DNA from: Paludibacteraceae bacterium
Lineage (GTDB): Bacteria; Bacteroidota; Bacteroidia; Bacteroidales; Paludibacteraceae
Length of the DNA: 64,000 nucleotides
Assembly: GCA_024399655.1 (NCBI GenBank)
Contig: JAKSNP010000003.1
Span: forward strand, 60,778 to 124,777
Direction of reading: 5' to 3'
The notes under the pieces are model-generated. The model was given only the letters and a program-made list of their open reading frames with translations, did not search any database and had not been told where the DNA came from. Shown here piece by piece: positions 3,654-36,968 of the stretch. The position numbers and the translations under genes are program-made. Each line of letters opens with the position of its first letter. Within the stretch, counting starts at the first letter, position 1.

Positions 3654-4300
3654 GTCAACGGATAGTTATTAGGGTTCATATTGGGGAGATCGCGCAATTG
3701 TTGGCGCCAACCTCTTCCCACCGCATGTATCGTTTGGAATCCGGCAGCTTTACCGGCTTCTATATTCGGCAGCAGGTCGTCCACATACAACGTCTCTTCA
3801 GGAAGTATGCCCGCATGCTCTATCACATATTGATAGCAACGCAGATCGGGTTTGGCCAAATGCATTTCATTGGAGAAGAAGCGTTGTTTGGCTTCGTCCA
3901 TGAAGGGGCAGTTTTCAAGCACCCATTCGGCATGCAGGTCGTTGATATTACTCAAAATATAGAGTGTATATCCTTTTTCCTGCAAGCGTTGCCATAATAT
4001 CTGAACTTCGCGTGACGAGCCAAGCAACATGGCATACCAAGCGGCTTTGATGGCATCAGAATTGGTGCCCGGCATGCATACCGACAATACCTGTCGCATA
4101 AAGTCCTCGGTACTTATCTCGCCGGTTTGATAGAGGTCGATCAAAGGCGAATCATGACCGCCGAGCAGTCCGTCGGCTGTTACCATATTATTTTGCTTCG
4201 CAAGTTGCGGATCGATGAAATGTTTCATGGCGGAAAGGGTGCGTTTCACCTCCAAATCAACCAGCACTCCGCCTATATCAAATAGTATATTTCGAATCAT
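3638..4300 (-). CDS. HAD-family phosphatase (YihX type)
   Basis: The sequence from MIRNILFDIGGVLVDLE gives a 220-residue haloacid dehalogenase-like hydrolase. Motif I is FDIGGVL (nucleophile Asp8), motif II is the Ser in YILSN, and motif IV is YVDDLLPNIEAGKAAGF. The layout is that of YihX/epoxide-hydrolase-type HADs, which dephosphorylate small metabolites. An ATG 15 nt further upstream would lie inside the promoter -7 box, so the start at 4300 is preferred. That places the start codon only 4 nt from TATCTTTG, implying a leaderless or near-leaderless transcript. It is the first gene of a minus-strand operon. Confidence 0.9.
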   Translation of the reverse strand: MIRNILFDIGGVLVDLEVKRTLSAMKHFIDPQLAKQNNMVTADGLLGGHDSPLIDLYQTGEISTEDFMRQVLSVCMPGTNSDAIKAAWYAMLLGSSREVQILWQRLQEKGYTLYILSNINDLHAEWVLENCPFMDEAKQRFFSNEMHLAKPDLRCYQYVIEHAGILPEETLYVDDLLPNIEAGKAAGFQTIHAVGRGWRQQLRDLPNMNPNNYPLTCLGH

Positions 4301-4304
4301 GCTG

Positions 4305-4336
4305 CAAAGATACAAGTTTTTTTTTGAATATGCAAG
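4305..4336 (-). promoter_or_regulatory. Promoter of the HAD-SDR operon
   Basis: On the minus strand CTTG (4333-4336), 20 nt with an A-tract, then TATCTTTG (4305-4312) match the Bacteroidota -33/-7 consensus. The start codon of the HAD gene begins 4 nt after the -7 box. Confidence 0.75.
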
Positions 4337-4402
4337 GAATGTTTACTTTCAATGGCAATTTTAATAAAAAAAAAGTGAAAACACATACTTGCCCGAATTA
4401 AA

Positions 4403-4530
4403 TTTCCAATCTCTGCATCACATCGTTTCTTTATTTCCCGACCATTTCCCGTTGCTATATTTGCTACATTTTTCCGTCCTGTATTTATCGAGAGCTAAAC
4501 GTAACATAAACGTAAGATAACCGTAACGTC
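4403..4530. repeat. Dispersed intergenic repeat, copy 1
   Basis: This stretch is clearly related to 32068-32185. Both contain GCATCACATCGTTT, a divergent T-rich centre, and then an almost identical block from TTTATCGAGAGCTAAACG through two or more ACATAAACGTAA units. No ORF or ORF remnant is evident in either copy. Its role is unknown; it could be a degenerate mobile or REP-like element. Confidence 0.65.
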
Positions 4531-4533
4531 ACC

Positions 4534-4565
4534 GAGCGGTTCGAGCGGTTCGAGCGGTTCGAGCG
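4534..4565. repeat. Three 9-bp direct repeats
   Basis: GAGCGGTTC occurs three times in perfect tandem (4534, 4543, 4552), followed by a partial fourth copy that continues as GAGCGAAGCGAAG. It directly follows the dispersed repeat. No gene overlaps it convincingly. Confidence 0.8.
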
Positions 4566-4704
4566 AAGCGAAGGAGAACCCCAAAGGAGAGAATCCCTCA
4601 CCACTCCCTTTCAGCGGATGATCAAGGAATAGAGAGTGAAACGAACGTTTTTTAGGACGGATAGCGTAATCTATAAGCTCGCTTAATAGAGTACGATAGA
4701 CGGA

Positions 4705-4739
4705 CAAAAAAGAAAAGGATGGAATATATTTCCATCCTT
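4705..4739 (-). terminator. Intrinsic terminator of tRNA-Ser
   Basis: On the minus strand AAGGATGGAA pairs with TTCCATCCTT (4715-4724 with 4730-4739), followed by a TTTTCTTTTTT run. It lies 20 nt downstream of the tRNA. Confidence 0.8.
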
Positions 4740-4758
4740 GTTCCTTATCATCCGTTTG

Positions 4759-4847
4759 CGGAAAGTGAGGGATTCGAACCCCCGGTACGACGTAATGCGT
4801 ACACCACATTTCGAGTGTGGCTCTTTCGACCACTCAGACAACTTTCC
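4759..4847 (-). tRNA. tRNA-Ser (anticodon CGA)
   Basis: The complement folds as a class II tRNA. The acceptor stem GGAAAGT/ACTTTCC has discriminator G, as required for serine tRNAs. There is a D arm with GAGTGGTCGAAAG, an anticodon stem CCACA/TGTGG around the loop CTCGAAA (anticodon CGA), a long variable arm, and a T arm with GTTCGAATC. The 3' CCA is not encoded. It decodes UCG. Confidence 0.95.
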
Positions 4848-4883
4848 GTATCGTTTCGGTCACAATCTTACGAATTGCGGCTG

Positions 4884-4915
4884 CAAAGGTACTGCTTTTT
4901 TTTGGATTGTGCAAA
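4884..4915 (-). promoter_or_regulatory. Promoter of tRNA-Ser
   Basis: TTTG (4912-4915), exactly 20 nt, then TACCTTTG (4884-4891) on the minus strand. The 28 bp at 4877-4904 are identical to 59297-59324 in the tRNA-Lys promoter. Confidence 0.85.
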
Positions 4916-5029
4916 CATTCAATTAAAAAAAATATTTTTTTCATTCATAAAAGCAATCCATACTGCCCTATACTGTTCTTCATGCGGCTCCGGCGCCCGT
5001 CTTTCGCCACATTGGCGAAGCGGCATCTG

Positions 5030-7255
5030 CTACTCCGCCGCTTGCCCTTGCAGAGTGTACACTTTGCCGTTGCGGCGGATATACAGCTGCCCGTTGCGGA
5101 TATACTTTACGGGGAGCGAGTCCGACCGTGTTTCGGCGGTCGAGGCCTCCACTTCTTTGAATACCGCCGTCAGCTCCACATCTTCCGTCAGCGTGAAACG
5201 GTAAGGATTGTCTTTCACGCCGTTCGACCATTCCACGAACTCGTAACCACCGTTCGCAATGGCGATAATGCTGACCTGGCTGCCTGCCTCATACGTGCCG
5301 TCGCCTACCACATAACCCATCAGCGAGTCGTTCGGTTCTGCCGTACAAGTATATATATACTGAGCCCATTCGGCTGTAAACATCGTGTCTTGCGTCACCG
5401 TCAGCACACGCGGATTGTCCGTATTCCCGTCGCTCCACGCCGTAAAATGATATCCGTAGTCGGGAATGACGATCAGCATGCACGTGTCCAGATAGGCGTA
5501 TGCTCCTACACCCATTATGGTTAGATGGCTTTCCGGAGAAGTTCCGACCGTGTAGATGTTTTTCGCGAAAATAGCGGTCAACGACGTGTCTTGCGTCAGC
5601 ATGAACCGGTAAGGATTCTCACTCACGCCGTCGCTCCATTCTACGAAATGATATCCGTAATGCGCGGTAGCGCTCATTTCCACCTCCGTCATATAGTCGT
5701 AGTCGTCGTTCTGCCCCGTCACATATCCCATCACGGTATCCCCCGACTCCACCGCGCACGAATAAACGTCTATCGCCACCTCCGCGGTCAGCGTTGAGTC
5801 TTGCGTCACCGTCAGCACGCGAGGATTGTCCGTATTCCCGTCGCTCCACTTTACGAAGTGATAACCCCGGTCGGGAACCACCGTCAGCGTGCACGTGTCC
5901 AGATAGGTGTATACGCCTGCCCCGTCAACCGACATGTTGGGGACCGTAGGAGCGGCCACCGTATAGCTGTTTTTCGCGAAATAGGCGGTCAAAGACGTGT
6001 CCTGAGCCAGCGGAAACATGTAAGGATTGTCGCTGCTGCCGTCGCTCCAGCCTGTGAAATGATATCCGTGATAGGCGATGGCGTTCAATTCCACGGCCGT
6101 CATATAGTCGCAACTGTCGATTCCCCCGCTCACGAGGCCCATCAGCGTGTCGTTCGCTTCTGCCTTACAGGTGTAAAAATACTGTTCCAGTTCGGCGGTC
6201 AGCAGCGTATCTTGCGTCACCGCCAATACGCGAGGATTGTCCGTGTTCCCGTCGTTCCACTTTACGAAACGGTATTTGTAATCCGGCACCACCGTCAATA
6301 CGCAACTGTCTTCCCAATAATAATCTCCCGTTCCGTATACGGTTCCGTGCTCCGGGCTGCCGCTTTCCACCGTCAGCGTCGGCAGGGTTGATATTCCTAC
6401 AATTCCGCCCCATACAGGGGCTCCCCTATAAGCCGAGAGGGATTCGTACCGCACATACACATCTAATGGATACAGACCCGCAAAACTCGACGTACCGCAT
6501 ACCGGCGGCTCGGGAGCATAGCAGTACAATGTGTTCACCTTGCCGTCCAAAAAGGCATTTTCACCTATCTCCACTACCGAACGCGGAATCGTGACCGTAT
6601 CTATAAACATACTGTTGGCGAACGCGTAATCGCTTATCTTTTTTATTCCCGAAGGGATGGTGTAAGCATGCAACCAATTATAAGCCCGCGGAAAGTACAC
6701 GAAATAGGTCGAATTATATACCGGCTCGTCAAATTCGCAACCGTAAAATGCCCATTCGCCTATCTCCGTCACCGAATTGGGCAGGTCGATCGATTTCAAA
6801 CTGCTGCAACCCAGGAAGGCTTTCGTTCCGATCATGGTCACCGAATTCGGGATTATCACTTCACTTAAACTGCTGCAACCGTTAAAGGCCATCAGTCCGA
6901 TCAGGGTCACCGAATCGGGAATGGCTATGCTCGTCAGGCTGCTGCAACCCGCAAAAGCGCACACCCCGATCGTTGTAATGGAATTGGGGAGTGTTATCGA
7001 AGTCAGATTCGTACAACCTTTGAATGCGTCTGTCCCCACCGAGGTGAGGTCATCGGAAAAAGTGATCAGACCGTGCTCGTTGGCAAAGGTGTGCGACTGG
7101 ATGCCGACGTCGAAGGCGCTGGTATGCAGTCCGGATTCATATGAGTCGCTCGCTGTGGGCAGGGGTTCCGAGGCGGTATACGAAATCGTATTCCCCGCAA
7201 GCACACCGGTCGAACAGCATATCACGGCCAAAAAGGAGAGAATTTTTTTCTTCAT
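5030..7255 (-). CDS. Secreted BspA-type LRR protein with six B-repeats
   Basis: The 741-residue product starts at MKKKILSFLAVICC (signal peptide to about residue 21); an upstream in-frame ATG lies beyond the promoter. Residues of about 60-270 are LRR_5/BspA repeats (FKGCTNLTSITLPNSIT, FAGCSSLTSIAIP and similar, with AFxGCSSL cores). Six InlB-type B-repeats of about 67 residues follow, each with GYxFxxWSDG and a final LTA. They alternate between two subtypes, one with DNPRVL and one with NPYxF. The C-terminus ends in KYIRNGQLYIRRNGKVYTLQG, a tail shared with other exported proteins here. A surface adhesin or host- or glycan-interaction protein is likely; LRR_5 proteins of Bacteroidales are usually surface-exposed. 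Confidence 0.9.
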   Translation of the reverse strand: MKKKILSFLAVICCSTGVLAGNTISYTASEPLPTASDSYESGLHTSAFDVGIQSHTFANEHGLITFSDDLTSVGTDAFKGCTNLTSITLPNSITTIGVCAFAGCSSLTSIAIPDSVTLIGLMAFNGCSSLSEVIIPNSVTMIGTKAFLGCSSLKSIDLPNSVTEIGEWAFYGCEFDEPVYNSTYFVYFPRAYNWLHAYTIPSGIKKISDYAFANSMFIDTVTIPRSVVEIGENAFLDGKVNTLYCYAPEPPVCGTSSFAGLYPLDVYVRYESLSAYRGAPVWGGIVGISTLPTLTVESGSPEHGTVYGTGDYYWEDSCVLTVVPDYKYRFVKWNDGNTDNPRVLAVTQDTLLTAELEQYFYTCKAEANDTLMGLVSGGIDSCDYMTAVELNAIAYHGYHFTGWSDGSSDNPYMFPLAQDTSLTAYFAKNSYTVAAPTVPNMSVDGAGVYTYLDTCTLTVVPDRGYHFVKWSDGNTDNPRVLTVTQDSTLTAEVAIDVYSCAVESGDTVMGYVTGQNDDYDYMTEVEMSATAHYGYHFVEWSDGVSENPYRFMLTQDTSLTAIFAKNIYTVGTSPESHLTIMGVGAYAYLDTCMLIVIPDYGYHFTAWSDGNTDNPRVLTVTQDTMFTAEWAQYIYTCTAEPNDSLMGYVVGDGTYEAGSQVSIIAIANGGYEFVEWSNGVKDNPYRFTLTEDVELTAVFKEVEASTAETRSDSLPVKYIRNGQLYIRRNGKVYTLQGQAAE

Positions 7256-7284
7256 ATATATAATGCTCAATTTCAAAAATCTTG

Positions 7285-7316
7285 CAAAGATACGAAGTTT
7301 TTTTTTATTACACAAA
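7285..7316 (-). promoter_or_regulatory. Promoter of the LRR/B-repeat gene
   Basis: TTTG (7313-7316), 20 nt including a run of A residues, then TATCTTTG (7285-7292) on the minus strand, about 30 nt before the chosen start. Confidence 0.8.
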
Positions 7317-7565
7317 TTTTTCCGTTTTTTCATCGTTCAATCTTCATCCTACGGTTGGCGTTTTCTTCGCTGAATGCAGTTTTTCCCTCCCGATACCCGT
7401 CCTGCGCACGCGTTTTGGCACACTTTTTGCTATTCTTTTTTCTGTTATTTTTTGCATACAGGAGCGCCCAAATCCATCCTTTTGCCAAAATAACAGCCCA
7501 TTTCATAACTACAACCATAAAATTTTTCAACCTAATAACAAAACAACAATAATCAAAAATCACTC

Positions 7566-9806
7566 ATGAAAAAGATTTTCACTTTTTTCTGCGCCGCTAT
7601 CCTGGCGCTCGGCGCTAATGCCGCTATCCCTACAGGCGACCGCGCTGTTCAGCTCAGCCGGCCTTCACTCGCCGCACAGCATGCTGACGCTTTCGGCCGA
7701 CAGGCCATGTCGCTTACCGCTAACGACGCCCGTAACCTCCGGCGCATGCCGATGGATGCTACCGACACCGTCCAAATCATCGTCGACCAGTCGCAATACA
7801 TCAAGCATCCCTCTTCCGATATCGGATCGTATGCCGACATCACCGTAGTGAACGCCGATCAGTCCTTCATGTTCGAAGTCTATGTCGCCACCGCCACTTT
7901 CAACGGCACCTACACCTACAACGATATTCTCGGCGTCTTGATTTACATCAACATGGAGCCGCTTTCTGTCACCGACTTCAGCTGCTCCATGACTGATGAC
8001 GGAACCGACTACTCCATCGATGTTTACGTCACCGCCTCCGACGGACATTGCTATCATTTCTATTTCGAGCACGTCACTCCGGCTGCCACCGACACCATCG
8101 AAGTCATGATTCTCGAACCCGAAATCACCACCTACTCGGATGCGTTTTCCATTGCCGGTCAGAACGAAACGCTTGGCATCGATGTCATGTTCACTATCTA
8201 CCCCGATACGCTTGACGGTGTCTACAACTACAGCGATCTCTACAACTATAGCTCCTACACTCACTTGACCGTCAACAACCAGAGCCTTTCTATTCTCGGT
8301 TTCAACGCCTTGATGCTTTATGTGGATGTTGATTTCACCTTCTCAGCCTACGCCCTGGCAAGCGACCTCCATTGCTACCATTTCACCATGATTCATGAGG
8401 TCCCCGATGCTGCCGACACCATCGTCATCTCCGTTCCCGATGCCGAAATCGGTACCTACGACAACGCCTTCACCGTTTATGGTGAAACGGCCGACCATTC
8501 TCTTGACGCTTCTATCACCATTCTCACCAGGCAGATCAATGGCTCCTACACCTACGACGACCTCTTTCTCGACAATGAAAACGAATACACCTACTTCGTC
8601 TACAACAGCCAGCAAATCAACATCGTCGATTTCAGCGCCACCATGGTGAAGAACGGTCCTGATTTCACCCTCGATGCCTATATACAGGGCGATGACCGGC
8701 ATTGCTACCACACCACCTTCTTCTATCAGGCTCCTGTCGCCGCCGATACCGTCGAAATTCAGTTCGAAGGCAACCAATCCATGTTCAAAGAAAACGAATT
8801 CGCCGTCTACGGTTGGAACGAACAGCTCGGTTACGAAATCGAACTCTACATCATGCACGCTCCCGAAGACGGCACCTACTCCTACGACGACCTCTACATG
8901 AGTGTCAGCGGCTACTCCTATATCTCCCACAACAACACTAGAATTCCGATTGTCGGTCTCAACTCCACCTTTACCCGCACGCCCTACACTTACACCCTCG
9001 ATGCCTATATCCTCGGCAGAGACGCTCATTGCTACCACGCCGTGTTCGCACAGCCGATCGACACCGTGGAAGTGCTTTCCGAAAACGCTATCTATTTCAA
9101 CCGTCACGACTTCTTCATGATTGCCGGCTCCGACCGCGATTCCGCTTTCATCGCCGAATTGATATTCAACGATCCTGCTGGCAACCGTACGCTCACCTTG
9201 GATGATGTCGACTTTGATGCCACTGGCGACTTCCCTCTCCTGGTCAACGGCAACGAATTGGGGATCATCGACATCAACGCCACCATGTCGTTAACCGAAT
9301 CCGACTACACCTTCGAGGCGTATATCTTCGCCCTCGACACCACTTGCTACCACTTCATCGCCAACCGCACTTTCTCGGTTCAGGAAGTGGAATTCGATAG
9401 CGTTCAGGTTGAAGAAGTGGCTCAATACGGAGTTTACGTCTACTCCGGCTACTCCGATTCATGCATACTGGGTGTCGCCGTTAAGTGCGACGAACTCGTC
9501 AGCCGTTCGTTCGACATCACCGATTTGGAAGAGGCTCTTCTCATGGTCAACGGCACGGATCTCCCCGTTTGCGACTTCAACGCCGTTCTCACTTACGACG
9601 GCGAGCATGATTGGTCGATGGATATCAATCTGATGGGAGCTGACATGGTTATTTACCATGCAGTCTTTGAGGACCGCACCCAACCTGCCGGTATCGACGT
9701 TATTCCGACAGAGCAACCCGTAGTGGAGAAATTCATCCGTGACGGTCAATTGATTATTCGTCGTCAGGGTAACGAATACTCCGTTCAAGGCCAGCAGCTC
9801 CGTTGA
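7566..9806 (+). CDS. Secreted protein of six CYH-motif repeats with a C-terminal tail
   Basis: This 746-residue exported protein (signal peptide MKKIFTFFCAAILALGANA) has a linker to about residue 65 and then six tandem units of 103-110 residues. Each unit starts with a DTIEV-like strand and passes through a YTYDDLY-like segment. Each ends in CYH, at residues 162, 270, 380, 489 and 594; in the sixth unit the Cys is replaced (IYH near 697). The units are rich in Asp, Tyr and beta-strand patterns and have few lysines. I do not recognise the domain. The last 25 residues (KFIRDGQLIIRRQG, then YSVQGQ) are the tail shared with the proteins at 5030, 10659 and 45280, suggesting common sorting. A surface or outer-membrane-associated location is inferred. 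Confidence 0.88.
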   Translation: MKKIFTFFCAAILALGANAAIPTGDRAVQLSRPSLAAQHADAFGRQAMSLTANDARNLRRMPMDATDTVQIIVDQSQYIKHPSSDIGSYADITVVNADQSFMFEVYVATATFNGTYTYNDILGVLIYINMEPLSVTDFSCSMTDDGTDYSIDVYVTASDGHCYHFYFEHVTPAATDTIEVMILEPEITTYSDAFSIAGQNETLGIDVMFTIYPDTLDGVYNYSDLYNYSSYTHLTVNNQSLSILGFNALMLYVDVDFTFSAYALASDLHCYHFTMIHEVPDAADTIVISVPDAEIGTYDNAFTVYGETADHSLDASITILTRQINGSYTYDDLFLDNENEYTYFVYNSQQINIVDFSATMVKNGPDFTLDAYIQGDDRHCYHTTFFYQAPVAADTVEIQFEGNQSMFKENEFAVYGWNEQLGYEIELYIMHAPEDGTYSYDDLYMSVSGYSYISHNNTRIPIVGLNSTFTRTPYTYTLDAYILGRDAHCYHAVFAQPIDTVEVLSENAIYFNRHDFFMIAGSDRDSAFIAELIFNDPAGNRTLTLDDVDFDATGDFPLLVNGNELGIIDINATMSLTESDYTFEAYIFALDTTCYHFIANRTFSVQEVEFDSVQVEEVAQYGVYVYSGYSDSCILGVAVKCDELVSRSFDITDLEEALLMVNGTDLPVCDFNAVLTYDGEHDWSMDINLMGADMVIYHAVFEDRTQPAGIDVIPTEQPVVEKFIRDGQLIIRRQGNEYSVQGQQLR

Positions 9807-12426: not shown

Positions 12427-13314
12427 TTAACGGCGATAGCGATAACGACGGTAGGAAGAATAAGGAGAAGGAGTAAGAGAATAACGAAGACGAAGACCGA
12501 ATGTGAACGCCTTGAATTGCAAAGCCGAAACATCCGTGAGAAGATATGACTTGACTTCGGCAGGAGGATATGAAGGATCTACGATTTCACCTACATCGAT
12601 CAACCATTCGGAAGAAGCTGACTTAGGCTGATAATCATTCCATGGACTGATGTTCAAATACAAGCCCAAGCCCAATTGACTCAAATCGGACAAACTCCAA
12701 TCATAGCCCCATTCAAACGAACAGAAAAGATGATGATGCGGCATCAAACCCCTGCCGGATACGGCGTATCGGTCAGCATCCAATTGACCCGTGATCAGTT
12801 CGTTGCGGACATATACATCATACTCAGGATAATAAGCCACAATACTGAGGTCGGAAATCGACTGAGCATATCGGGAACGTATAAGATAACGGTAGGTGAG
12901 ACCCAAATCAAAATAGAAGCCATTAGCGCGGAGCGTGAAAAGCAACGGCACTTCCACCTGGAACTGGCTGACAGACATACGAACCTCATCAGACAGGACC
13001 TGATAATCCATCGGATGGCCGAGATAGTCGGTGTTGGAGAACGACTCAGCCACTTTGTCGCGGAAAGAGAGCCGCGTTGCCCCTACCCCAATTCCTGTGC
13101 GGAAGCCGAGTTCGGCATGTCCGCGAGTGGGGAAATAGCAAGCATATTGGATGTCGAACATCCCTTCAGGGCCCGGAACGCCCACAGCTTTGGGCGAAGA
13201 CAGATAGACATCGGCTCCGCCACGCACGGCAAAAGAGATGACGGAGGAAGATTGTGCTCCGGCCATCAGGCAACCGCCAAGGGCGATAAGGGAAAGAAGA
13301 AAGAGTCGACGCAT
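12427..13314 (-). CDS. Outer-membrane beta-barrel protein
   Basis: From MRRLFLLSLIALGGCLMAGAQ (signal peptide) the 295-residue product shows alternating amphipathic strands with aromatic girdles (FAVRGGADVYLS, AELGFRTGIGVGATRLSF, FYFDLGLTYRYL, QLGLGLYLNISP, FTFGLRLRYSL). This is the pattern of a porin-like barrel of roughly 10-12 strands. The last residues are Tyr/Arg-rich (SSYRRYRYRR) instead of the usual C-terminal Phe. It follows the split-B-repeat genes by 98 nt in the same direction. It could be the membrane anchor or exit pore for those surface proteins, but that rests on position only. Confidence 0.75.
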   Translation of the reverse strand: MRRLFLLSLIALGGCLMAGAQSSSVISFAVRGGADVYLSSPKAVGVPGPEGMFDIQYACYFPTRGHAELGFRTGIGVGATRLSFRDKVAESFSNTDYLGHPMDYQVLSDEVRMSVSQFQVEVPLLFTLRANGFYFDLGLTYRYLIRSRYAQSISDLSIVAYYPEYDVYVRNELITGQLDADRYAVSGRGLMPHHHLFCSFEWGYDWSLSDLSQLGLGLYLNISPWNDYQPKSASSEWLIDVGEIVDPSYPPAEVKSYLLTDVSALQFKAFTFGLRLRYSLTPSPYSSYRRYRYRR

Positions 13315-13350
13315 AACTTTTAGTAATTCACAATGCAGCAAAGCTGCAAC

Positions 13351-13412: not shown

Positions 13413-14219
13413 TCAATCAAGGTGGACAATATAGCGAAGAGTTTCGCTGAATGAATCCGACTGAACGACCACGTTGTAGCATCCTGCTACAGGAGCAGCA
13501 GGCAGATAGAACACATCCGAACCATGCAGGATGTGCGACTGTATGAGTCGTCCGGCCATATCATACACACGGATGACAGTAGTTTCATCCGGTTTGAGAC
13601 CTACGATTTTGAGTTGCTCTCCGGGAAGAGCGGCCGTAGGCGTGAGTATAAGTCGCGGCGGGGAAGGAGCCCGTCCGGAATAAGAAACGATAACGGAACG
13701 CATGAGTCCGTCACAGAGCAAACCTGCCGGTGAAGCGGAAACATCCACTACAGCATAATAATCGCCAGTACCCTGAAGGTCACGAGCGAGCGTGAGATAA
13801 TAGCCATTGCATACGGCTTCATCGTCCTGCGGGAAGTTGTTGTGCATATCGTCGGCATCGTCACGAATACGATACCAAGTGACGTTGTGTTCGCCGAAAT
13901 AATAGCCGAGCGAGTCGTGAATATACTTGACGTCAAGCATCATAAGCCAGTCGTAAAGCGCCACGACAGGCAGGTTGGCGTACTCGGCACAATTGGAAGC
14001 GAAATATGCTATAAAGGCCGTATCTGAGTAGATTTCCACAGACCTTACGGCGTTTGTGTCGCCATCCGACCAATGGTCGAAATGGTAGAACTGGTTAGGA
14101 TAAGCCGACAAGTTGAGCCAAGTGCCGCAATTGACCTGCATAGAGGTACCGGACGTTCCCTGAGCGAGAACGCCGGTAGCCACCAGGCAGAGCAAATATA
14201 GACAGAAGCGTCTTGTCAT
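13413..14219 (-). CDS. T9SS-exported protein starting with a partial B-repeat
   Basis: From MTRRFCLYLLCLVATGVLAQ (signal peptide) the mature protein opens at once with the later part of an InlB-type B-repeat (CGTWLNLSAYPNQFYHFDHW, then AYFA). The first strand of the repeat is missing. A middle domain of about 100 residues follows, with no recognised motif. The C-terminus is a canonical T9SS type A sorting domain: VIRVYDMAGRLIQS, then GCYNVVVQ and a final basic/hydrophobic strand. T9SS would carry it across the outer membrane and anchor or release it there. It is third in a row of three genes with split repeats; the preceding protein ends with the missing first strand. An earlier ATG at 14303 would not give a signal peptide at the N-terminus. 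Confidence 0.85.
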   Translation of the reverse strand: MTRRFCLYLLCLVATGVLAQGTSGTSMQVNCGTWLNLSAYPNQFYHFDHWSDGDTNAVRSVEIYSDTAFIAYFASNCAEYANLPVVALYDWLMMLDVKYIHDSLGYYFGEHNVTWYRIRDDADDMHNNFPQDDEAVCNGYYLTLARDLQGTGDYYAVVDVSASPAGLLCDGLMRSVIVSYSGRAPSPPRLILTPTAALPGEQLKIVGLKPDETTVIRVYDMAGRLIQSHILHGSDVFYLPAAPVAGCYNVVVQSDSFSETLRYIVHLD

Positions 14220-14360
14220 TATGAATAAGTATTTTCTAAGGGCACACCACAGGAGGCAACGAAAACGAAACGTTAACGATCCTGCCAATCCCGGGATTAG
14301 CACAAAAACTATATATTTATTTAATCGCTTATACTAACTCGATGTTTATCGCAATACGGA

Positions 14361-15005
14361 TTAATTGTTAGTGGTTTTGACGACAGCATCAACTGAACCT
14401 TCGGTAGTAACGTTGCCAGCAGTATGAACATGAACAGTATATTTATTGATAGTGAAGTAAGCCACGAAACCTTGGTCACCGGTGACAGCAGCAGTAGCAG
14501 TTTTGTTAGTAGAAACAAGAGTGTTATCAGCATCAGTAGCACCGTCAGCCAATGTCCACCTGTCGAAATGATAGCAACTGCCATCATCTTCGGTAGCCAC
14601 AAGATTGATATTGTCAGCATTGCTGGCATCAGGATCAGCTGTTGCATTGACCATATATGTTACAAAATCAGCTGCATTAGTAAGAGTTACGTCATAAATA
14701 CCGTCAGCATCGGTATCCAACTTGATGGTAACTGTAATTTGGTTCAGTGCGAAGTTAGCAGTATAATTGAAATTCGCATGAATATCTTCAATCGTATAAG
14801 TGGTAGATGTGGAGATAACATTGTTGCTATTGTCATCATCAGTCCAGTTAACGAAGTGGTAACCGGCAGCAGGAGTAGCGGTAATTTCAACGGATTGGCC
14901 GCACAATACGTCAGAAACGGTAACGGTACCTTGAGGAGTGGTTTGAGCGTTAACGGTTGCGATGGCGCAAAGAGCCATCAGAGCGATAGAAAAAATCTTT
15001 TTCAT
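14361..15005 (-). CDS. Exported B-repeat linker protein with half-repeats at both ends
   Basis: The 214-residue product has a signal peptide (MKKIFSIALMALCAIATVNAQ). The mature part starts inside a B-repeat (QGTVTVSDVLCGQSVEITA, GYHFVNW, YTANFA), has one complete repeat (ITVTIKL to CYHFDRW to FVAYFTI), and ends with only the first strand of a third (KYTVHVHTAGNVTTEGSV). The next gene's product begins with the complementary remainder. The preceding protein likewise ends with the first strand that this one lacks. There is no separate sorting tail. The layout fits a middle subunit of a surface fibre; this is inference from domain boundaries. Confidence 0.8.
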   Translation of the reverse strand: MKKIFSIALMALCAIATVNAQTTPQGTVTVSDVLCGQSVEITATPAAGYHFVNWTDDDNSNNVISTSTTYTIEDIHANFNYTANFALNQITVTIKLDTDADGIYDVTLTNAADFVTYMVNATADPDASNADNINLVATEDDGSCYHFDRWTLADGATDADNTLVSTNKTATAAVTGDQGFVAYFTINKYTVHVHTAGNVTTEGSVDAVVKTTNN

Positions 15006-15048
15006 AATGTTTTGTTTTTAAATTGTTAGTATTAAAGTTAATTATTTG

Positions 15049-15894
15049 TTATTCGATTTTGGTTGCCGTCACGAAGCCCTGTGAAGCATCATTCACATGG
15101 AGGGTGACGGTGTAGGATTTGCGTTCAAAAATAGCGGTATAGGTCGGTCCTCCACATTCAACGGTAACGGTTCGTGTGGGGGAGGTTTCGCCATCCGACC
15201 AACGTACGAACTGATAGCAGGGATCGGTGGCGGTGGCGGAAAGGGTAACCTGTTCGCCTATGTGATAAAAATTCCGGTCGGGAGATTTGGAAACCTGCCC
15301 CACTCCTTCGGGTGAGACAGCAGTATTCAAAGGCTGCTTGGCGGTAATTACTACATCTTTAAAAATACCTGCATAATTTCCTAAGTAACGGAGCATAATA
15401 TACCGTGTATCGTCACGAAGAGCGATTTTTCTAACTCTATTGGCATCAGGATGTGAATCCCAAGTCTCATAAAATGTCCAATTATTAGGAGTTGGACTTT
15501 CACGCACTTCGTACAAAGTGCTTGACAAGTCTGATGTGTGAGCAATATTATTATTAGGAAAAATTTTATAATATATGGTATCAGGAACCATGTTGGGGTC
15601 TAAGGCAATGATGACATATTTTTCCTTAAAATAAGAAGCTGGCCACCATAGTTCTTCAGAACCGAGGCAAACACCACCTTGCGACCATCGAGGACCTAAA
15701 TCAACATCTACCCATTTTAATCCCTCCAAATGCTTATCAATATTTACACTTTTTGTCGTAGTATTGGGATTATTGAAATCCGCCTCGGTGTAAGTGGCCA
15801 CGCAATCCGAATATTGTAGTTGCGCCATAGCATGGAAGCTACAGAGCAAAGCGATTAATAATATGTAGAATTGCTTAAAGCGCATTTTCTTCAA
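15049..15894 (-). CDS. Exported protein with head domain and terminal half B-repeat
   Basis: The 281-residue product has a signal peptide (MKKMRFKQFYILLIALLCSFHAMAQ). A head region of about 155 residues resembles a jelly-roll or discoidin-like beta-sandwich (VDLGPRWSQGGVCLGSEELW, IALRDDTRYIMLRYLG, FKDVVITAK), although the family is not certain. One full B-repeat follows (GEQVTLSATA, CYQFVRWSDGE, YTAIFER), and then only the first strand of another (SYTVTLHVNDASQGFVTA) before the stop. It is first of three genes with 43 and 141 nt spacers. The head could bind a ligand at the tip of an assembly. Confidence 0.8.
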   Translation of the reverse strand: MKKMRFKQFYILLIALLCSFHAMAQLQYSDCVATYTEADFNNPNTTTKSVNIDKHLEGLKWVDVDLGPRWSQGGVCLGSEELWWPASYFKEKYVIIALDPNMVPDTIYYKIFPNNNIAHTSDLSSTLYEVRESPTPNNWTFYETWDSHPDANRVRKIALRDDTRYIMLRYLGNYAGIFKDVVITAKQPLNTAVSPEGVGQVSKSPDRNFYHIGEQVTLSATATDPCYQFVRWSDGETSPTRTVTVECGGPTYTAIFERKSYTVTLHVNDASQGFVTATKIE

Positions 15895-25138: not shown

Positions 25139-25921
25139 TTAGATAATATGTTTTTCTTTAAGACGAGCAACAATCAGTTCAACTGCTTCTTCTTCACTTA
25201 CCTCATGTACTTCACCGGGCTCTTTAAGGGCTTTGGGGAAGGATTTGAACACTTTGGTAGGAGAGCCTTTGAGACCGAGTTTGGTTTCATCCACATCAAT
25301 TTTGTCTGCGGTCCAAACTTCCACTTCTTTGGTAGCATAAGCCTCAATAATGCCCTCAACGGTCATATAGCGGGGTTTGAATGCTGAAGCGAGAACGGTG
25401 AGGACACATTTGCCATCCACTTCAAGGGTTTGAACGGAATCTTCGTTCTCTTTCTTGACGATGATTTTATCACCCTTTTTCTCGGCGTCGATTACATAAC
25501 TTACCTGAGGGAGATCAAGATGTTCAGCCATTTCGGGAGCTACTTGAGCGGTATCACCATCGATAGCCTGACGGCCGGCAATAATGATATCATAATCAAG
25601 CGTTTTGATGCAACCAGCAAGAGCATAGGACGTAGCCAGCGTATCAGCACCTGCGAAACGACGGTCGGACAGGAGGATAGCACGGTCTGCACCCATAGCC
25701 AAAGCTTCGCGCAGAATGAGGTCGGCTTGAGGAGGACCCATGGAAACAACGGTAACAGTAGCACCATGTTGTTCCTTCAGACGAAGAGCGAGTTCAAGAC
25801 CGCCTTTATCATCAGGATTCATAATAGACGGAACACCGTCACGGATAAGTGTACCTTTTACGGGATCGATTTTGATCTCAGTGGTATCGGGAACTTGTTT
25901 TGCACAAACGATAATATTCAT
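25139..25921 (-). CDS. etfB: Electron transfer flavoprotein, beta subunit
   Basis: This 260-residue EtfB begins MNIIVCAKQVPDTTEIKIDP, has NPDDKGGLELALRLKE, the adenine-nucleotide-binding SMGPPQADLILREALAMGADRA segment, and AGRQAIDGDTAQVAPEMAE. It pairs with EtfA as the redox partner of Bcd. It sits 12 nt from both neighbours (bcd upstream, etfA downstream), so the three are clearly one unit. The order bcd-etfB-etfA is the usual one in butyrate producers. Confidence 0.96.
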   Translation of the reverse strand: MNIIVCAKQVPDTTEIKIDPVKGTLIRDGVPSIMNPDDKGGLELALRLKEQHGATVTVVSMGPPQADLILREALAMGADRAILLSDRRFAGADTLATSYALAGCIKTLDYDIIIAGRQAIDGDTAQVAPEMAEHLDLPQVSYVIDAEKKGDKIIVKKENEDSVQTLEVDGKCVLTVLASAFKPRYMTVEGIIEAYATKEVEVWTADKIDVDETKLGLKGSPTKVFKSFPKALKEPGEVHEVSEEEAVELIVARLKEKHII

Positions 25922-25933
25922 ACTATGTCCTCC

Positions 25934-27076
25934 TTATTTCTTAAACAATTGACCTGCAATAACCATACGCTGAACCTCAGAGGTACCTTCGTAGATTTCA
26001 GTAATCTTAGCATCGCGCATCATACGCTCAACAGGATACTCACGGGTGTAGCCGTAACCACCGTGGAATTGAACTGCCTTAGTAGTAACTTCCATTGCAG
26101 TTTCTGCAGCATAGAGTTTAGCCATTGCTGCGTCAACGGAATAAGGCAGACCCATATCTTTTTTCCAAGCAGCAGAACGAACCAAAAGACGAGCTGCTTC
26201 TACGCGGGTCTTGAGGTCGGCCATTTGGAATTGGGTATTTTGGAATTGTGCAATTGCACGACCGAACTGTTTACGCTCTTTAGTATACTTAACGGTTTCA
26301 TCCATAGCGCCTTGAGCAATACCAAGTGCCTGAGATGCAATACCGATACGACCGCCATCAAGTGTTTTCATTGCCACTTTGAAGCCGTCTCCAAGATTGC
26401 CAAGAAGGTTCTCCTTGGGGACTTCGCAGTTTTCGAAAATAAGTTCGCAAGTAGCGGAACCACGAATACCCATCTTCAACTCTTTCTTACCTACGGAGAA
26501 GCCTTTGAAGCTGCGCTCAACGATGAAAGAGGAAATACCCTTAACACCTTTTGATTTATCCGTCATGGCCATGACTATGAATACATCGGCATTAGCGGCA
26601 TTGGTAATGAATATTTTCGTACCATTGAGAATCCATTTGTCGCCTGCATCAACAGCGGTAGTCTGTTGCATTGCAGCATCCGTACCTGCATTGGGTTCGG
26701 TAAGACCGAAAGCGCCCAACCATTCGCCGGAAGCGAGTTTGGGAAGATACTTCATTTTCTGCTCCTCGGTACCATGCTCCAAAATAGGTGACATGCAAAG
26801 AGAAGTGTGAGCGCTGAGAACTACACCGGTAGTAGCACATACGCGAGAAAGTTCTTCAACAGCCATGATATACATTTGCACCGTACCACCTGCACCACCA
26901 TACTGCTTGGGTACAGGAATTCCCATCAAACCAAGTTTACCCATTTTGCGAACGGTCTCTTCAGGAAACATTTCCTTTTCGTCCACTTCGGCTGCCAAAG
27001 GTTTGACTTCGTTCTCAGCAAATGAACGAATCATTTGAAGGAACAATTGTTCTGTCTTTGAATAGCTAAAATCCAT
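25934..27076 (-). CDS. bcd: Butyryl-CoA dehydrogenase
   Basis: This 380-residue acyl-CoA dehydrogenase reduces crotonyl-CoA to butyryl-CoA. The FAD-binding segments are GAFGLTEPNAGTDAA and FITNAANADVFIVMA. The catalytic Glu is in IYEGTSEVQRMVI near the C-terminus, the place used by short-chain dehydrogenases. The flanking HGGYGYTREYPVERMMRDAK block is fully conserved. With etfB and etfA immediately downstream it forms the Bcd-Etf complex that ends the lysine pathway and may support energy conservation. Confidence 0.96.
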   Translation of the reverse strand: MDFSYSKTEQLFLQMIRSFAENEVKPLAAEVDEKEMFPEETVRKMGKLGLMGIPVPKQYGGAGGTVQMYIMAVEELSRVCATTGVVLSAHTSLCMSPILEHGTEEQKMKYLPKLASGEWLGAFGLTEPNAGTDAAMQQTTAVDAGDKWILNGTKIFITNAANADVFIVMAMTDKSKGVKGISSFIVERSFKGFSVGKKELKMGIRGSATCELIFENCEVPKENLLGNLGDGFKVAMKTLDGGRIGIASQALGIAQGAMDETVKYTKERKQFGRAIAQFQNTQFQMADLKTRVEAARLLVRSAAWKKDMGLPYSVDAAMAKLYAAETAMEVTTKAVQFHGGYGYTREYPVERMMRDAKITEIYEGTSEVQRMVIAGQLFKK

Positions 27077-27133
27077 AATTTGTATAATTTTTAGTAGATT
27101 ATTTTCTTAGAAACAATTCTATTTCTTGAAAAA

Positions 27134-27970
27134 TTAATATTTGTAGAAACCTTCACCGGTTTTACGGCCAAGAAGACCGGCGCGAACCATCTTGCGAAGC
27201 AGCGGATGAGGACGATATTTGGGATCGCCGAATTCTTTGTAAAGCACTTCCATGATAGCGAGGTTGACATCATTTCCGATAAGATCTGCCAAAGCCAAGG
27301 GGCCCATTGGATGGTTGGCACCAAGCATCATGCATTTGTCGATATCTTCTGCAGAAGCGATTCCATCAGCCAAGATACCAACAGCTTCATTGATCATCGG
27401 AATAAGGATACGGTTAACTACAAAACCCGGAGCTTCCTTGACAGGAACGGGGGTTTTACCAATAGCCGAGCAGAGGTCGATAATTTGTTTGGTAACATCT
27501 TCGGAGGTCAATTGGCCATTGATTACTTCTACAAGAGCCATACGATCTGCAGGATTGAAGAAGTGACAACCGATAAACTGAGCAGGACGAGAAGTGGCTG
27601 CTGCAATTTCTGTGATAGAGAGAGAAGATGAATTGGTTGCGAAGATGGTTTCGGGTTTGCAGATAGTATCCAATTCACGGAAAACCACTTTCTTGAGTTC
27701 CATATCTTCTACCGCAGCTTCAATCACGAGATCTGCATCTGCAAAGGTAGCATAGTCGGTAGTAGTGGTAATATTGGCGAGGATGGCTTTTGCAGCATCT
27801 TCGGTCATTTTACCCTTCTCGACGAGTTTCATATACCCCTTCTCGATGGAAGCCATAGCTTTGTCCAAACTAGCCTGAGTACGGCTTTTCATAACAACAG
27901 GCATCTTTGCGGCAAAGGCCTTTACTATACCTTTTGCCATCGTACCTGTACCGATTACATAGATTTTCAT
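27134..27970 (-). CDS. hbd: 3-hydroxybutyryl-CoA dehydrogenase
   Basis: The 278-residue product opens with the Rossmann motif [11 protein letters not shown]. It carries the catalytic His in [17 protein letters not shown], the Asn/Glu context [10 protein letters not shown], and the C-terminal dimerisation domain ([30 protein letters not shown]). It interconverts acetoacetyl-CoA and 3-hydroxybutyryl-CoA with NAD(H). In the strict lysine pathway it is not required. Next to crt it allows acetyl units or acetoacetyl-CoA to be drawn into the crotonyl-CoA pool. The third Gly of the usual GxGxxG is replaced by Ala (GTGTMA). Confidence 0.95.
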
Positions 27971-28002
27971 ATTGCTAGTAAATTAGTTAGTAATTCTTTT
28001 AA

Positions 28003-28785
28003 TTATTTGCCTTGGAAAGTAGTCTTTTCCTTACGCAGGAAAGCAGCCATACCATTTTTTTGATCTTCGGTAGTGAAGCAACGGGCAAAGAGTTGGTTCT
28101 CCAAAGCGAGGCCCTCGGTGCGATCCATATCGTAGTTGCGATTGATGCATTCTTTTGCATAACTTACAGCCAGCGGAGCATTTTTGATAATTTGCTCGGC
28201 CAAAGCGATTACTGCAGGCATCAATTCTTCGGGCTCATATACGGCATTTACCAAACCGATACGCAATGCCTCATCTGCCCGAATCACCTTTGCTGAATAA
28301 ATCAGTTCTTTGGCCATACCCTGCCCTATGAGTTTGGGCAAACGATAAGTACCGCTGAAACCGGGGATAATTCCCAATCCTACTTCGGGTTGACCGAATT
28401 TGGCTTTGGAAGAAGCATAGCGGATATCGCAAGCCATTGCTATCTCGCAACCTCCACCGAGGCAGAAACCATTAACAGCTGCAATGGTAGGAATTGGAAG
28501 GTCTTCCAACTTACGGAAAGCTTCGGCTCCTTTCTGACCAAATGCAAGTCCTTCTGCCTCATTCTTGTTTGCCATCTCCGAGATATCGGCACCGGCCACG
28601 AATGATTTCTCACCATCTCCAGTGAGGATAAGCACACGATTGGCTGTTGTGTCTAGACGGCTGCAAAAGTCATCCAATTCACAAATGATGGTTGAATTGA
28701 GTGCATTGAGCGACTTGGGGGCGCTGATTGTAAGTATTCCTATACCGTTGTCGCGCAATTCGTATTTAAGATACTGATAATCCAT
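28003..28785 (-). CDS. crt: Enoyl-CoA hydratase (crotonase)
   Basis: This 260-residue crotonase-fold enzyme has the oxyanion-hole segment FVAGADISEMA, NGFCLGGGCEIAMACD with the first catalytic Glu, and FGQPEVGLGIIPGFSGT with the second. It hydrates crotonyl-CoA reversibly to 3-hydroxybutyryl-CoA and links Hbd to Bcd. It starts just one base after the atoA stop, so translation is coupled. Confidence 0.94.
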   Translation of the reverse strand: MDYQYLKYELRDNGIGILTISAPKSLNALNSTIICELDDFCSRLDTTANRVLILTGDGEKSFVAGADISEMANKNEAEGLAFGQKGAEAFRKLEDLPIPTIAAVNGFCLGGGCEIAMACDIRYASSKAKFGQPEVGLGIIPGFSGTYRLPKLIGQGMAKELIYSAKVIRADEALRIGLVNAVYEPEELMPAVIALAEQIIKNAPLAVSYAKECINRNYDMDRTEGLALENQLFARCFTTEDQKNGMAAFLRKEKTTFQGK

Positions 28786-28786
28786 A

Positions 28787-29446
28787 TTAGTCGAGCATCG
28801 ATTTGAGATTAGGACTGATAATCAGTTTTGCTTCAGTTGCAGCTTGGATTTCCTCAACGGTGAAATCTGGATGTTTCTCAACCAATTCGATACCTTCGGG
28901 AGTAACATTCATTACGCCCATTTCGGTAATGATCATATTCACCTGACCGGCAGCTGTAAGAGGCAGGGTGCACTCTTTCAGAATTTTGTGAGCACCTTTC
29001 TGAGTATGTTCCATGGCGATAATCACACGGCGAGCACCTACTACGAGGTCCATTGCGCCACCCATACCGGGAGCGATTTTGCCTGGAATAATCCAGTTGG
29101 CGAGGTTACCCTTTTCGTCCACCTGAAGAGCACCAAGAACAGATACGTCTACATGACCGCCACGAATGATAGCAAAAGAAGTAGCGCTATCAAAAGTGCT
29201 GGCACCGGGGATAAGGGTAATATATCCGCCACCTGCATTCTGCAAGTTAGGATCTTCTTTACCTGCTTCGGGAGTTGGACCGAGACCCATACCTCCGTTT
29301 TCAGTCTGCAAAGTAACTGTAATTCCTTCGGGCAAGAAATTAGGAATCATTGTGGGCAGACCGATACCCAAGTTGACAACGTCACCGTCGTGCAATTCGC
29401 GTGCTGCACGGCGAGCAATCACTTCTCTAATTTGTTCTTTTTCCAT
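28787..29446 (-). CDS. atoA: Butyrate-acetoacetate CoA-transferase, subunit B
   Basis: The 219-residue beta subunit of a family I CoA-transferase has the catalytic Glu in [11 protein letters not shown], the N-terminal [12 protein letters not shown] and the [20 protein letters not shown] block. With AtoD it moves CoA from butyryl-CoA to acetoacetate, releasing butyrate and giving acetoacetyl-CoA for thiolysis. Oddly, its partner atoD lies about 9 kb away at the other end of the operon, separated by nine genes. These subunits are normally adjacent. Confidence 0.93.
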
Positions 29447-29515
29447 AATTGTATATTTTTAGATGTTATTTCTTATAATCTGATAGCCATTGCTTTTTAT
29501 CCGGCAACAACCGTT

Positions 29516-30304
29516 TTATTTCATTCCGCGTTTATCCATTTCCTGTACGATGTAGGAAGCCACATCATCAGCATAGGTATTCATGCCGAATCCTGCATCA
29601 AAACCGAGTTCCTGAGCCAGTTCGTGGGTGATACGAGCGCCGCCGCAAACACATATCATCTTGTTTCGCAAGCCCTCTGCCTCCATCAATTCGATGAAAT
29701 TGGTCAGGTTCTTGATATGAACATCTTTCTGGGTAACGGTTTGAGAGATAATCAAGGCATCTGCATGCAATTCAAGACCTTTGGCGATGAATTCCTCGTT
29801 GGGCACCTGCGAACCGAGATTGTATGCCTCTATCATATCATAACGTTCCAAACCATAGTGACCGGCGTAACCTTTCATATTCATGATAGCGTCAATACCT
29901 ACTGTATGAGCATCCGTTCCGGTTGAAGCACCTACCACAACGATTTTACGGCCGATATGCTCGCGGATATACTGATCGGTATCGGGCATCGACATCACAT
30001 TGGATTCCACTTTGGGAACGTATATCGAACTATAATTAACCGTATGCGTGCAACTGCCGTAGCAATTGAAGAATGTGAATCCTGGAGTCAATTCCTTATA
30101 ATATACTACAGAGGGATTCTCCAGACCCATTTGTTTAAGGAGTTGTTTTGCTGCTTCCACAGCTTCTGCGCCACAGGGAACGGGCAAGGTGAAAGAAAGT
30201 TGAACCTTACCGTCGTTCATCGTATCTCCATAAGGCTTGATTTTGGTGAGATCCAAGGTCTTGTCAAAATCCTTGGCTTCCATGCTATATAATCCTTCGC
30301 TCAT
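29516..30304 (-). CDS. kamE: Lysine 5,6-aminomutase, beta subunit
   Basis: The 262-residue adenosylcobalamin-binding subunit has the DxHxxG motif at residues 131-136 (DAHTVG). His133 is the lower ligand to cobalt, and Lys144 in NMKGYAG forms the pyridoxal phosphate aldimine. These are the same positions as in the studied clostridial enzyme. The rest is a Rossmann-like B12 fold (ADALIISQTVTQKDVHIKNL). It moves the terminal amino group of L-beta-lysine (or D-lysine) to carbon 5. kamD lies 37 nt upstream. Confidence 0.96.
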   Translation of the reverse strand: MSEGLYSMEAKDFDKTLDLTKIKPYGDTMNDGKVQLSFTLPVPCGAEAVEAAKQLLKQMGLENPSVVYYKELTPGFTFFNCYGSCTHTVNYSSIYVPKVESNVMSMPDTDQYIREHIGRKIVVVGASTGTDAHTVGIDAIMNMKGYAGHYGLERYDMIEAYNLGSQVPNEEFIAKGLELHADALIISQTVTQKDVHIKNLTNFIELMEAEGLRNKMICVCGGARITHELAQELGFDAGFGMNTYADDVASYIVQEMDKRGMK

Positions 30305-30341
30305 AATTCAATGATTCAATTTTTGATTTGTTAATTAGCGA

Positions 30342-34518: not shown

Positions 34519-34523
34519 TGTTC

Positions 34524-36935: not shown

Positions 36936-36968
36936 AATTGTAATTGTGTTTTAATATTGTTTTTTTTA

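Follow-up and report, generated by a model that had tools for sequence, protein, structure and literature searches.

A probable tip–linker–anchor chain in Paludibacteraceae with B-repeat domains split between neighbouring proteins

Three adjacent genes of the window, by which we mean the whole 64,000-nucleotide stretch of Paludibacteraceae DNA analysed here, probably encode a tip–linker–anchor chain whose joints combine strand complementation with a disulfide bond and whose anchor alone bears a T9SS signal. This reading derives from the sequences: the end of one protein and the start of the next resemble parts of one domain, so that the two probably plug together. The features concerned are as follows.

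15049–15894, minus strand: ORF1, putative tip and donor, with a signal peptide, an N-terminal domain without Pfam match, one complete B-repeat and a C-terminal tail
15052–15117, minus strand: tail of ORF1, SYTVTLHVNDASQGFVTATKIE, residues 260–281, the proposed donated first strand and turn
15217–15219, minus strand: Cys226 of ORF1 (DPCYQF, repeat position 34), proposed partner of ORF2 Cys35
14361–15005, minus strand: ORF2, putative linker, with a signal peptide, an acceptor head, a second repeat-like domain and a C-terminal tail
14901–14903, minus strand: Cys35 of ORF2 (VLCGQ, repeat position 21), invariant head cysteine
14574–14576, minus strand: Cys144 of ORF2 (GSCYHF, repeat position 34), proposed partner of ORF3 Cys31
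14364–14444, minus strand: tail of ORF2, KYTVHVHTAGNVTTEGSVDAVVKTTNN, residues 188–214
13413–14219, minus strand: ORF3, putative anchor, with a signal peptide, an acceptor head, a conserved middle domain and a T9SS type A C-terminal domain
14127–14129, minus strand: Cys31 of ORF3 (VNCGTW), invariant head cysteine
12427–13341, minus strand: ORF4, a probable outer-membrane beta-barrel adjoining ORF3 (PF13568, 25.3 bits, below the cut-off of 27)

A first-pass annotation had described three exported proteins with split B-repeats here; their positions, strand and architecture are confirmed, as is a signal peptide on each of the three, judged by eye. ORF1 ends in KSYTVTLHVNDASQGFVTATKIE and ORF2 in KYTVHVHTAGNVTTEGSVDAVVKTTNN, the stop coming in both cases about 22–27 residues into a new B-repeat, and the mature N-termini of ORF2 and ORF3 enter the repeat at about position 20, after the signal peptide. 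The split holds insofar as complementary ends and starts are present; the boundary is not exact to the residue, tail and head overlapping slightly around a G-x-V turn, which implies that the tail comprises the first strand plus its turn. A Pfam scan of ORF1–ORF3 and the two ORFs downstream of ORF3 placed ORF2 (58.5 bits) and ORF1 (30.1 bits) in PF18998, ORF3 alone (22.4 bits) falling just under the gathering cut-off of 23.6. The match of ORF3 begins at profile position 10; that of ORF2 begins at profile position 2 by reaching back to residue 17, within the signal peptide, and the truncation is therefore invisible to Pfam alone. Mature ORF2 has two cysteines. Matches of ORF2 to two NCBIfam models of Shiga toxin B (E 0.17 and 0.53, well short of the cut-off) were dismissed as chance, and its profile found nothing meaningful among the sequences of known structures (best E 0.65). 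An ORF4-like ORF, identified by eye, follows ORF3 in relatives L080–L087, as a fragment in L087.

When tail and head are joined, the missing part of the repeat is restored. Scored with an HMM built from 95 intact repeats, the heads of a first set of loci (set 1) reached 53.9 bits alone and 65.6 bits with their tails, as compared with 54.3 for control C-termini and 54.4 for shuffled tails; the median match start moved from 21 to 1, and 37 of 39 joints gained more than 2 bits, versus 1 of 39 controls. Set 2, made up of 32 loci of 31 further genomes, with heads chosen by the set 1 rule and the cysteine not used, gave 52.8 bits for heads, 63.0 joined and 53.2 for controls, the start moving from 20 to 2 and the gain exceeding 2 bits at 64 of 66 joints (controls 2/66); the L170 and L171 joints showed zero gain with 22 tail residues. 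In the window, the ORF1 tail plus the ORF2 head reach 68 bits with a match starting at model position 1, as compared with 52 bits from position 21 for the head by itself, and the ORF2–ORF3 joint, with the last 22 tail residues only, passes from 51 to 52 bits and from start 20 to start 3. In sequence, the joints thus show an incomplete acceptor domain and a complementary donor segment, two features of strand-complementation assemblies. The earlier proposal that a donated beta-strand completes the neighbour is supported by these tests on sequence, and the two parts would presumably bind physically. Alternatively, each might fold by itself, the tail forming a hairpin packed against the last repeat of its own chain and the head being a stable shortened domain, with joining by the disulfide only or not at all. 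The slight overlap around the turn would suit this, as would the lack of pairing specificity and the two or three heads, listed below, that have no donor next to them; we nevertheless think it unlikely, given that the heads have a median model start of 20–21, that tails restore what is missing, and that tails stand directly before heads and were found nowhere else among the ORFs examined.

Stand-alone ORF3 is present in at least 49 of 358 genomes of the family, in three genera; the hosts are uncultured gut Bacteroidales. A genome search for adjacent complementary half-repeats, as the first-pass annotation had advised, found them to be recurrent. In set 1, 39 of 42 heads lie directly after a tail-bearing gene (by eye), the window's ORF2 and L092_3706 having been added to this count by hand. 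Among the 67 set 2 heads, 66 have a gene directly upstream, the remaining one being at a contig edge, and all 66 of these genes bear a tail, recognised in 58 with the set 1 HMM and in the other 8 by eye; the pattern holds at 31 of 32 loci. Three N-terminal repeats with their own first strand (L163_2402, L165_3428 and L173_1670) were excluded from the set 2 heads by match start; the first two are without Cys 21. Also left out were L145, L147, L150 and L158, which were judged from their matching sequence to duplicate L081, L082, L083 and L080, and one ORF whose last 200 residues are identical to its neighbour's. An earlier set 2 list of 54 heads underlies the dN/dS, the tail–head pairing, and the small-anchor and short-motif cysteine counts below. 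On the C-termini of 835 non-overlapping set 1 ORFs (four duplicate loci included), a tail HMM found 36 tails after removal of duplicates, all in operons of this kind and 33 with a head directly downstream; since it was built from those same tails, it tests specificity, not sensitivity. Half-repeat tails at these genes are not due to chance. The heads without an adjacent donor, two or three in number, are an L148 gene of 385 aa, an L090 gene of 511 aa and the L090 anchor of 141 aa, whose 511-aa neighbour has an internal tail only.

Tips differ among loci (LRR, an Endonuclease I domain, domains without Pfam match), and the connector is kept. Some loci have two tips or four subunits, and L142 has two successive, distinct linker-type proteins. 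The window's own genome contains 19 PF18998 matches, lying, beyond the three genes, at 5030–7333 of the window and in L096, L097 and L098; the PF18998 ORFs of L096–L098 have a short motif at the C-terminus instead of a half-repeat. In 295 genomes of the order, the ORF2 profile at E 1e-15, which is not a wide search, matched 8 and gave no case of the split system beyond the family; nearly all matches are in ORFs of more than 1000 aa and thus represent general B-repeat proteins. Besides the window's gene, one short ORF was matched (387 aa, G070, same family, profile positions 64–190). For the named relatives, the genomes are metagenome-assembled or come from uncultured organisms, which might suggest an assembly or annotation artefact of metagenome bins; recurrence refutes this, and we consider it next to impossible, as the same layout is found in dozens of separate genomes with proteins 23–51% identical to the window's ORF3 and 27–37% to its ORF2.

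Cysteines mark both sides of the joint. Position 21 is Cys in 40 of 40 set 1 heads versus 21 of 142 other repeats, a census in which the window's ORF2 and L092_3706, whose matches extend into the signal peptide, count as 'other' although they are heads with Cys; in set 2 it is Cys in 67 of 67. A Cys at 34/35 is found in 27 of 28 set 1 repeats preceding a tail versus 16 of 148, the sole exception (L142, 1133 aa) having a Cys inside the tail, and in all 42 set 2 donors ending in a B-repeat. Within residues −75 to −18, a Cys occurs in 66/66 set 2 donors, as against 4/32 B-repeat proteins with the short C-terminal motif. In single chains, CxxFxxW or [VI]PC stands in the preceding 80 residues of 22 of 27 repeats with Cys 21 (5 being without either motif) but of only 4 of 183 without it, and in three of these four contrary cases inspection by eye shows a Cys close to position 21, displaced by an indel; any Cys in that interval is found for 27/27 and 80/183. 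The P-values ignore the relatedness of the genomes. In small anchors (116, 121 and 141 aa) the head Cys is the single one of the mature protein. The invariant head Cys and the donor Cys, at positions that covary between adjacent domains in single chains, lead us to predict a disulfide across the joint. Neither DSBA nor VKOR was matched in the window's own genome (75% complete) or in 11 genomes more than 90% complete, so that the disulfide would need another oxidant.

Over 67 linker pairs, dN/dS was 0.123 for the tail, 0.140 for the head, 0.166 for the rest and 0.255 for the signal peptide; the tail is the most constrained region of the linker and is under strong purifying selection. It has to be considered whether the half-repeats are functionless remnants, left when one ancestral protein was broken up by the gain of internal stops and signal peptides. 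In nine single-ORF relatives the repeat at this junction is complete and lacks Cys at 21 (by eye), and many of the listed family genomes have the same domain inside a longer ORF. However, the tail has the lowest dN/dS of the four regions, stand-alone ORF3 is spread over three genera, and Cys 21 is present in all split heads of both sets and at none of the nine fused junctions, which makes this origin very improbable. Relatives with a single ORF, which the first-pass annotation had set as a counter-indication if the breaks were recent, thus exist, yet the breaks are not recent, as the number of genomes with stand-alone ORF3 and the selection on the tails indicate; together with tail–head adjacency, these rule out a recent break of one gene.

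The order of pairing is not reflected in specificity. Over 38 triplets, the ORF1 tail scored 0.60 with the ORF2 head and 0.61 with the ORF3 head, and the ORF2 tail 0.61 with the ORF3 head and 0.57 with the ORF2 head; neither specificity nor coevolution was detected. Since the linker bears both head and tail, it could conceivably close on itself or polymerise with its own copies into fibres of many linkers. The absent specificity would allow this, and so would the 511-aa protein of L090, which has a head and an internal tail and stands beside a minimal anchor with no other adjacent donor. The two distinct linkers of L142 argue against it, and tails are more alike to same-position tails of other loci (0.159 and 0.166) than to those of the other position (0.102), although within one locus the two tails resemble each other (0.222). 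We therefore regard it as rather unlikely, if the least so of the alternatives.

The preferred reading is an ordered surface chain with ORF1 as the tip, ORF2 as the linker and ORF3 as the anchor, each joint being one B-repeat domain built from two chains. The C-terminal tail of the donor would give the first strand and turn and the N-terminus of the acceptor the remainder, which alone should be unable to form a complete domain. The available part of PMC8900821 likens the InlB B-repeat to a beta-grasp domain whose edges are formed by strands 2 and 3, so that the first strand would be central; by analogy, the tail may be the central first strand of a beta-grasp-like repeat. A disulfide from the donor's last complete domain to acceptor position 21 would lock the joint, the donor Cys being that at repeat position 34, the VPC cysteine of LRR tips or one just before the tail. 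Counting against the reading are the lack of a DSBA or VKOR match, the missing tail–head specificity, the heads that have no neighbouring donor, the joints with little or no gain and the five single-chain repeats with neither partner motif. ORF3 is a T9SS type A substrate by its sorting domain (TIGR04183, 25.8 bits, cut-off 23, residues 203–265), as had been annotated, and by the translocon in its genome (SprA, 2628 bits), and the NCBIfam scan found no such domain in ORF1 or ORF2. All subunits would reach the periplasm by Sec and, with the signal on the anchor only, would most likely assemble there before export or retention at the outer membrane via the anchor; joining outside the cell, as originally written, is not supported in that form and is at best equally likely. 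A broader and more tentative possibility is a general plug-and-socket system, in which interchangeable tips sharing one C-terminal plug would be joined to an anchor through one or several linkers by completion of B-repeats in trans in the periplasm, each joint being sealed by a disulfide and the folded chain exported on the one T9SS signal of the anchor.

If this is correct, Bacteroidales would possess multi-subunit surface structures in which the incomplete domain is encoded by the gene and not made by a protease. For T9SS, it would predict that signal-less proteins can leave in complex with a signal-bearing one. The split domain with its cysteine pair might serve as a two-part protein coupler, and proteins starting or ending in partial repeats are best read together with their neighbours.

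The literature searched yielded no description of such a system, or of a B-repeat shared by two chains. Among the closest parallels are the type V pili of Bacteroidales (FimA/Mfa of Porphyromonas gingivalis). The available passages on these propose that exported subunits are joined by a donated strand, in one proposal by C-terminal strands of the shaft protein after removal of the acceptor's N-terminal first strand; the first strand of the Mfa2 anchor is held by a disulfide, and pilins, whose fold is two beta-sandwich domains, lose an encoded first strand to gingipains acting on lipoprotein precursors (PMC5789003, PMC4789730). Shaft, anchor and tip proteins come from one operon. The likeness would lie in joining by a donated strand, subunits from one operon and a disulfide near the strand; in contrast, the gene here does not encode the first strand, a B-repeat is used as the domain and a T9SS signal is found on the anchor. 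No fimbrillin family domain was found in ORF1–ORF3 by Pfam, whose matches were to B-repeat families apart from two weak ones well below the cut-off. There is no encoded N-terminal strand for a protease to remove, the heads beginning at about model position 20 shortly after the signal peptide, and no lipobox is visible by eye before the likely cleavage sites.

In chaperone–usher subunits the missing strand is the last one. According to the available part of PMC4789730, their incomplete domain, of Ig-like fold, is completed by the neighbour's N-terminal donor strand with the help of a chaperone and an usher. Completion by a neighbour's strand would be common to both, whereas here a C-terminal donor would fill the missing first strand of a B-repeat; the domain is PF18998 without its first strand and not an Ig-like fold without its last. 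B-repeat proteins (PF18998/PF09479), among them InlB of Listeria, belong to the same domain family; in InlB, as far as the available part of PMC8900821 goes, a single chain contains the entire repeat domain, whereas here it appears split over two. With T9SS type A substrates the system shares the sorting domain of ORF3 and a genome with SprA; ORF1 and ORF2 differ from them in having no sorting domain and would travel, or be held, with ORF3.

The three genes lie on the minus strand in the order ORF1, ORF2, ORF3, with the proposed roles of tip (donor), linker and anchor:

15049-15894, minus strand: ORF1, signal peptide by eye; opening strand of a B-repeat, with its turn, at the C-terminal end
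14361-15005, minus strand: ORF2, signal peptide by eye; B-repeat remainder at the start, first strand and turn at the end
13413-14219, minus strand: ORF3, signal peptide by eye; B-repeat remainder at the start; T9SS type A sorting domain

The first-pass annotation proposed that these adjacent exported proteins share split B-repeats, and the sequence pattern is borne out: ORF1 and ORF2 end in a partial repeat (tail), while ORF2 and ORF3 begin with the remainder (head). Pfam matched the B-repeat family PF18998 in all three, with ORF3 slightly below the cut-off. The T9SS type A tail ascribed to the last protein was likewise recovered (25.8 bits, cut-off 23); the same search found none in ORF1 or ORF2. 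SprA is present in the genome (2628 bits; genome 75% complete), and ORF4, downstream of ORF3, is a probable beta-barrel gene with a match below the cut-off. Elsewhere in the window, the genes at 25139-38883 look by eye like a cluster for lysine fermentation and butyrate, with apparent aminomutases, an acyl-CoA dehydrogenase, Etf and a CoA transferase.

Relatives were sought with ORF1 and ORF3 in 61 genomes, by a scan of named genomes, and with a profile of ORF3 in 358 genomes of the family; the split layout is widespread across them. The named-genome scan gave 19 loci from Paludibacteraceae, Candidatus Colicola or uncultured Bacteroidales, with caecum, omasum and horse faeces among the sources; RUG in genome names presumably denotes rumen. 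The ORF3 profile matched 156 of the 358 family genomes. Among the matches listed, ORF3 stands alone (an open frame of 210-359 aa, match beginning at profile position 1-11) in at least 49 genomes of three genera, and its domain lies within longer ORFs, up to 3068 aa, in many others.

A tip, a linker and an anchor make up most loci examined. Four subunits are encoded at L142 and two tips each at L081 and L092; L093 has an anchor plus a donor cut off by the contig end. In nine tips scanned, Pfam matched BspA-type LRR, Endonuclease I with Flg_new repeats, or only B-repeats. Since a donor in L092 (4892-7603) carries an Endonuclease I domain (PF04231) in its N-terminal part, tips may be enzymes besides adhesins. 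A 511-aa protein (L090:4952-6487), adjoining a 141-aa minimal anchor, combines an acceptor head and a Cys34-bearing repeat with an internal tail and one more domain at the C terminus, and would be a side-domain version of the linker. In each of two loci (L170 in G145, L171 in G144), some 4 kb separates two anchor-type genes, as in tandem operon duplication, and the second donors bear longer tails containing glycine. In the window's own genome, two adjoining long B-repeat ORFs (L096:625-4329 and 4378-8634) are identical over their last 200 residues, resembling a recent duplication or conversion.

Neighbouring genes with complementary B-repeat ends, the search proposed at first pass, were counted. 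In set 1 (L080-L158 and the window), a B-repeat HMM located 216 domains, classed as heads (40), repeats preceding a tail (28) or others (148); two further heads had been classed among the others. A tail-bearing gene, judged by eye, lies directly upstream of 39 of these 42 heads. Conversely, a tail HMM run on the C-termini of 835 ORFs found 36 tails (duplicate loci excluded), 33 of them with a head directly downstream; the other three belong to extra tips preceding another tip (L081, L092) and to L087, whose anchor gene seems broken or truncated (3915-4333 in G009, matching the C-terminal part only). Set 2, 32 loci from 31 further genomes, was obtained once the models were fixed, with the head rule unchanged. 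Of its 67 heads, 66 have a directly adjacent upstream gene and one (L180) lies at a contig edge; all 66 genes bear a tail (58 by the set 1 HMM, eight by eye), and 31 of the 32 loci have at least one HMM-supported joint.

Complementarity was assessed by placing the neighbour's last 22 residues before the head and scoring the product with an HMM built from 95 intact repeats, which themselves average 71.4 bits. In set 1, the mean rose from 53.9 to 65.6 bits (controls 54.3 and 54.4), the median match start moved from position 21 to 1, and 37 of 39 joints gained more than 2 bits. Set 2 behaved similarly: 52.8 to 63.0 bits (control 53.2), start from 20 to 2, at position 3 or earlier in 56/66, and gains above 2 bits in 64/66 (controls 2/66). 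The window's ORF1-ORF2 joint rose from 52 to 68 bits, and ORF2-ORF3, with the longer ORF2 tail trimmed to 22 residues, from 51 to 52 only.

Over 67 linker pairs (62-97% identity, pooled and non-independent), dN/dS was lowest in the tail (0.123), followed by the head (0.140), the rest of the protein (0.166) and the signal peptide (0.255). Split and single-ORF states both occur among relatives. By eye, the ORF3 domain of nine single-ORF relatives (L154-L157, L192-L196) is preceded by a repeat whose match begins at model position 1-5, about 50 residues away from the domain match in L157, and none has Cys at position 21 of this repeat; L156 has Cys at 34 and L155 a Cys in the preceding domain. Other long-ORF relatives (L088, L089, L099, L197-L199) have no such repeat directly before the ORF3 domain.

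Cysteines mark both sides of the joint, on counts whose P-values are uncorrected for genome relatedness. Position 21 is Cys in 40/40 set 1 and 67/67 set 2 heads, as against 21/142 other repeats of set 1, and position 34 or 35 in 27/28 set 1 and 42/42 set 2 repeats before a tail, as against 16/148 others of set 1. Donors with another final domain have a Cys a little upstream of the tail instead; residues -75 to -18 include one in 66/66 set 2 donors, as against 4/32 B-repeat proteins with a short C-terminal motif. Many B-repeat proteins of the family, for example L092:3327-3677, terminate in this motif of about 25 residues (like RKMLINDKLYILLDDKLYDATGKRVK); it has no NCBIfam name in the proteins scanned and is possibly a short sorting signal. 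Exactly two mature Cys occur in 36 of 63 head-bearing proteins without a C-terminal signal by pattern (mostly linkers, plus some anchors that the pattern missed), and one in each of three small anchors (116, 121, 141 aa). In single-chain proteins, 27/210 intact internal repeats have Cys at 21; CxxFxxW or [VI]PC occurs in the preceding 80 residues of 22 of these 27, as against 4/183 without it. From these paired positions and the conservation in heads and donors, we infer that the position 21 Cys would pair with the domain before it, within one chain (in cis) in single-chain proteins and between chains in split ones. It counts against a disulfide that neither DSBA nor VKOR was found in 12 genomes (the window's own and eleven more than 90% complete).

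PMC8900821 describes the InlB B-repeat as similar to a beta-grasp domain in which strands 2 and 3 form the edges. The tail, if it corresponds to strand 1, would lie in the middle of the sheet, which the head could not make by itself. One subunit's tail would enter the next subunit's head, the predicted disulfide would then fix it, and the ORF3 sorting signal would bring the chain to the surface or hold it there; binding, oxidation, assembly site and the export of ORF1 and ORF2 are predicted parts of this sequence-derived model. The linker might also join copies of itself: tails and heads showed no pairing specificity.

We found no description of split B-repeats in the literature searched, mainly open papers without bioRxiv preprints. 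The chains would work like donor-strand assembly. They are not chaperone-usher systems, which use a different fold and a different strand, nor type V pili, which have a fimbrillin domain and an encoded first strand to remove, both lacking here. The nearest principle is nevertheless the C-terminal donation proposed for type V pili (PMC5789003).
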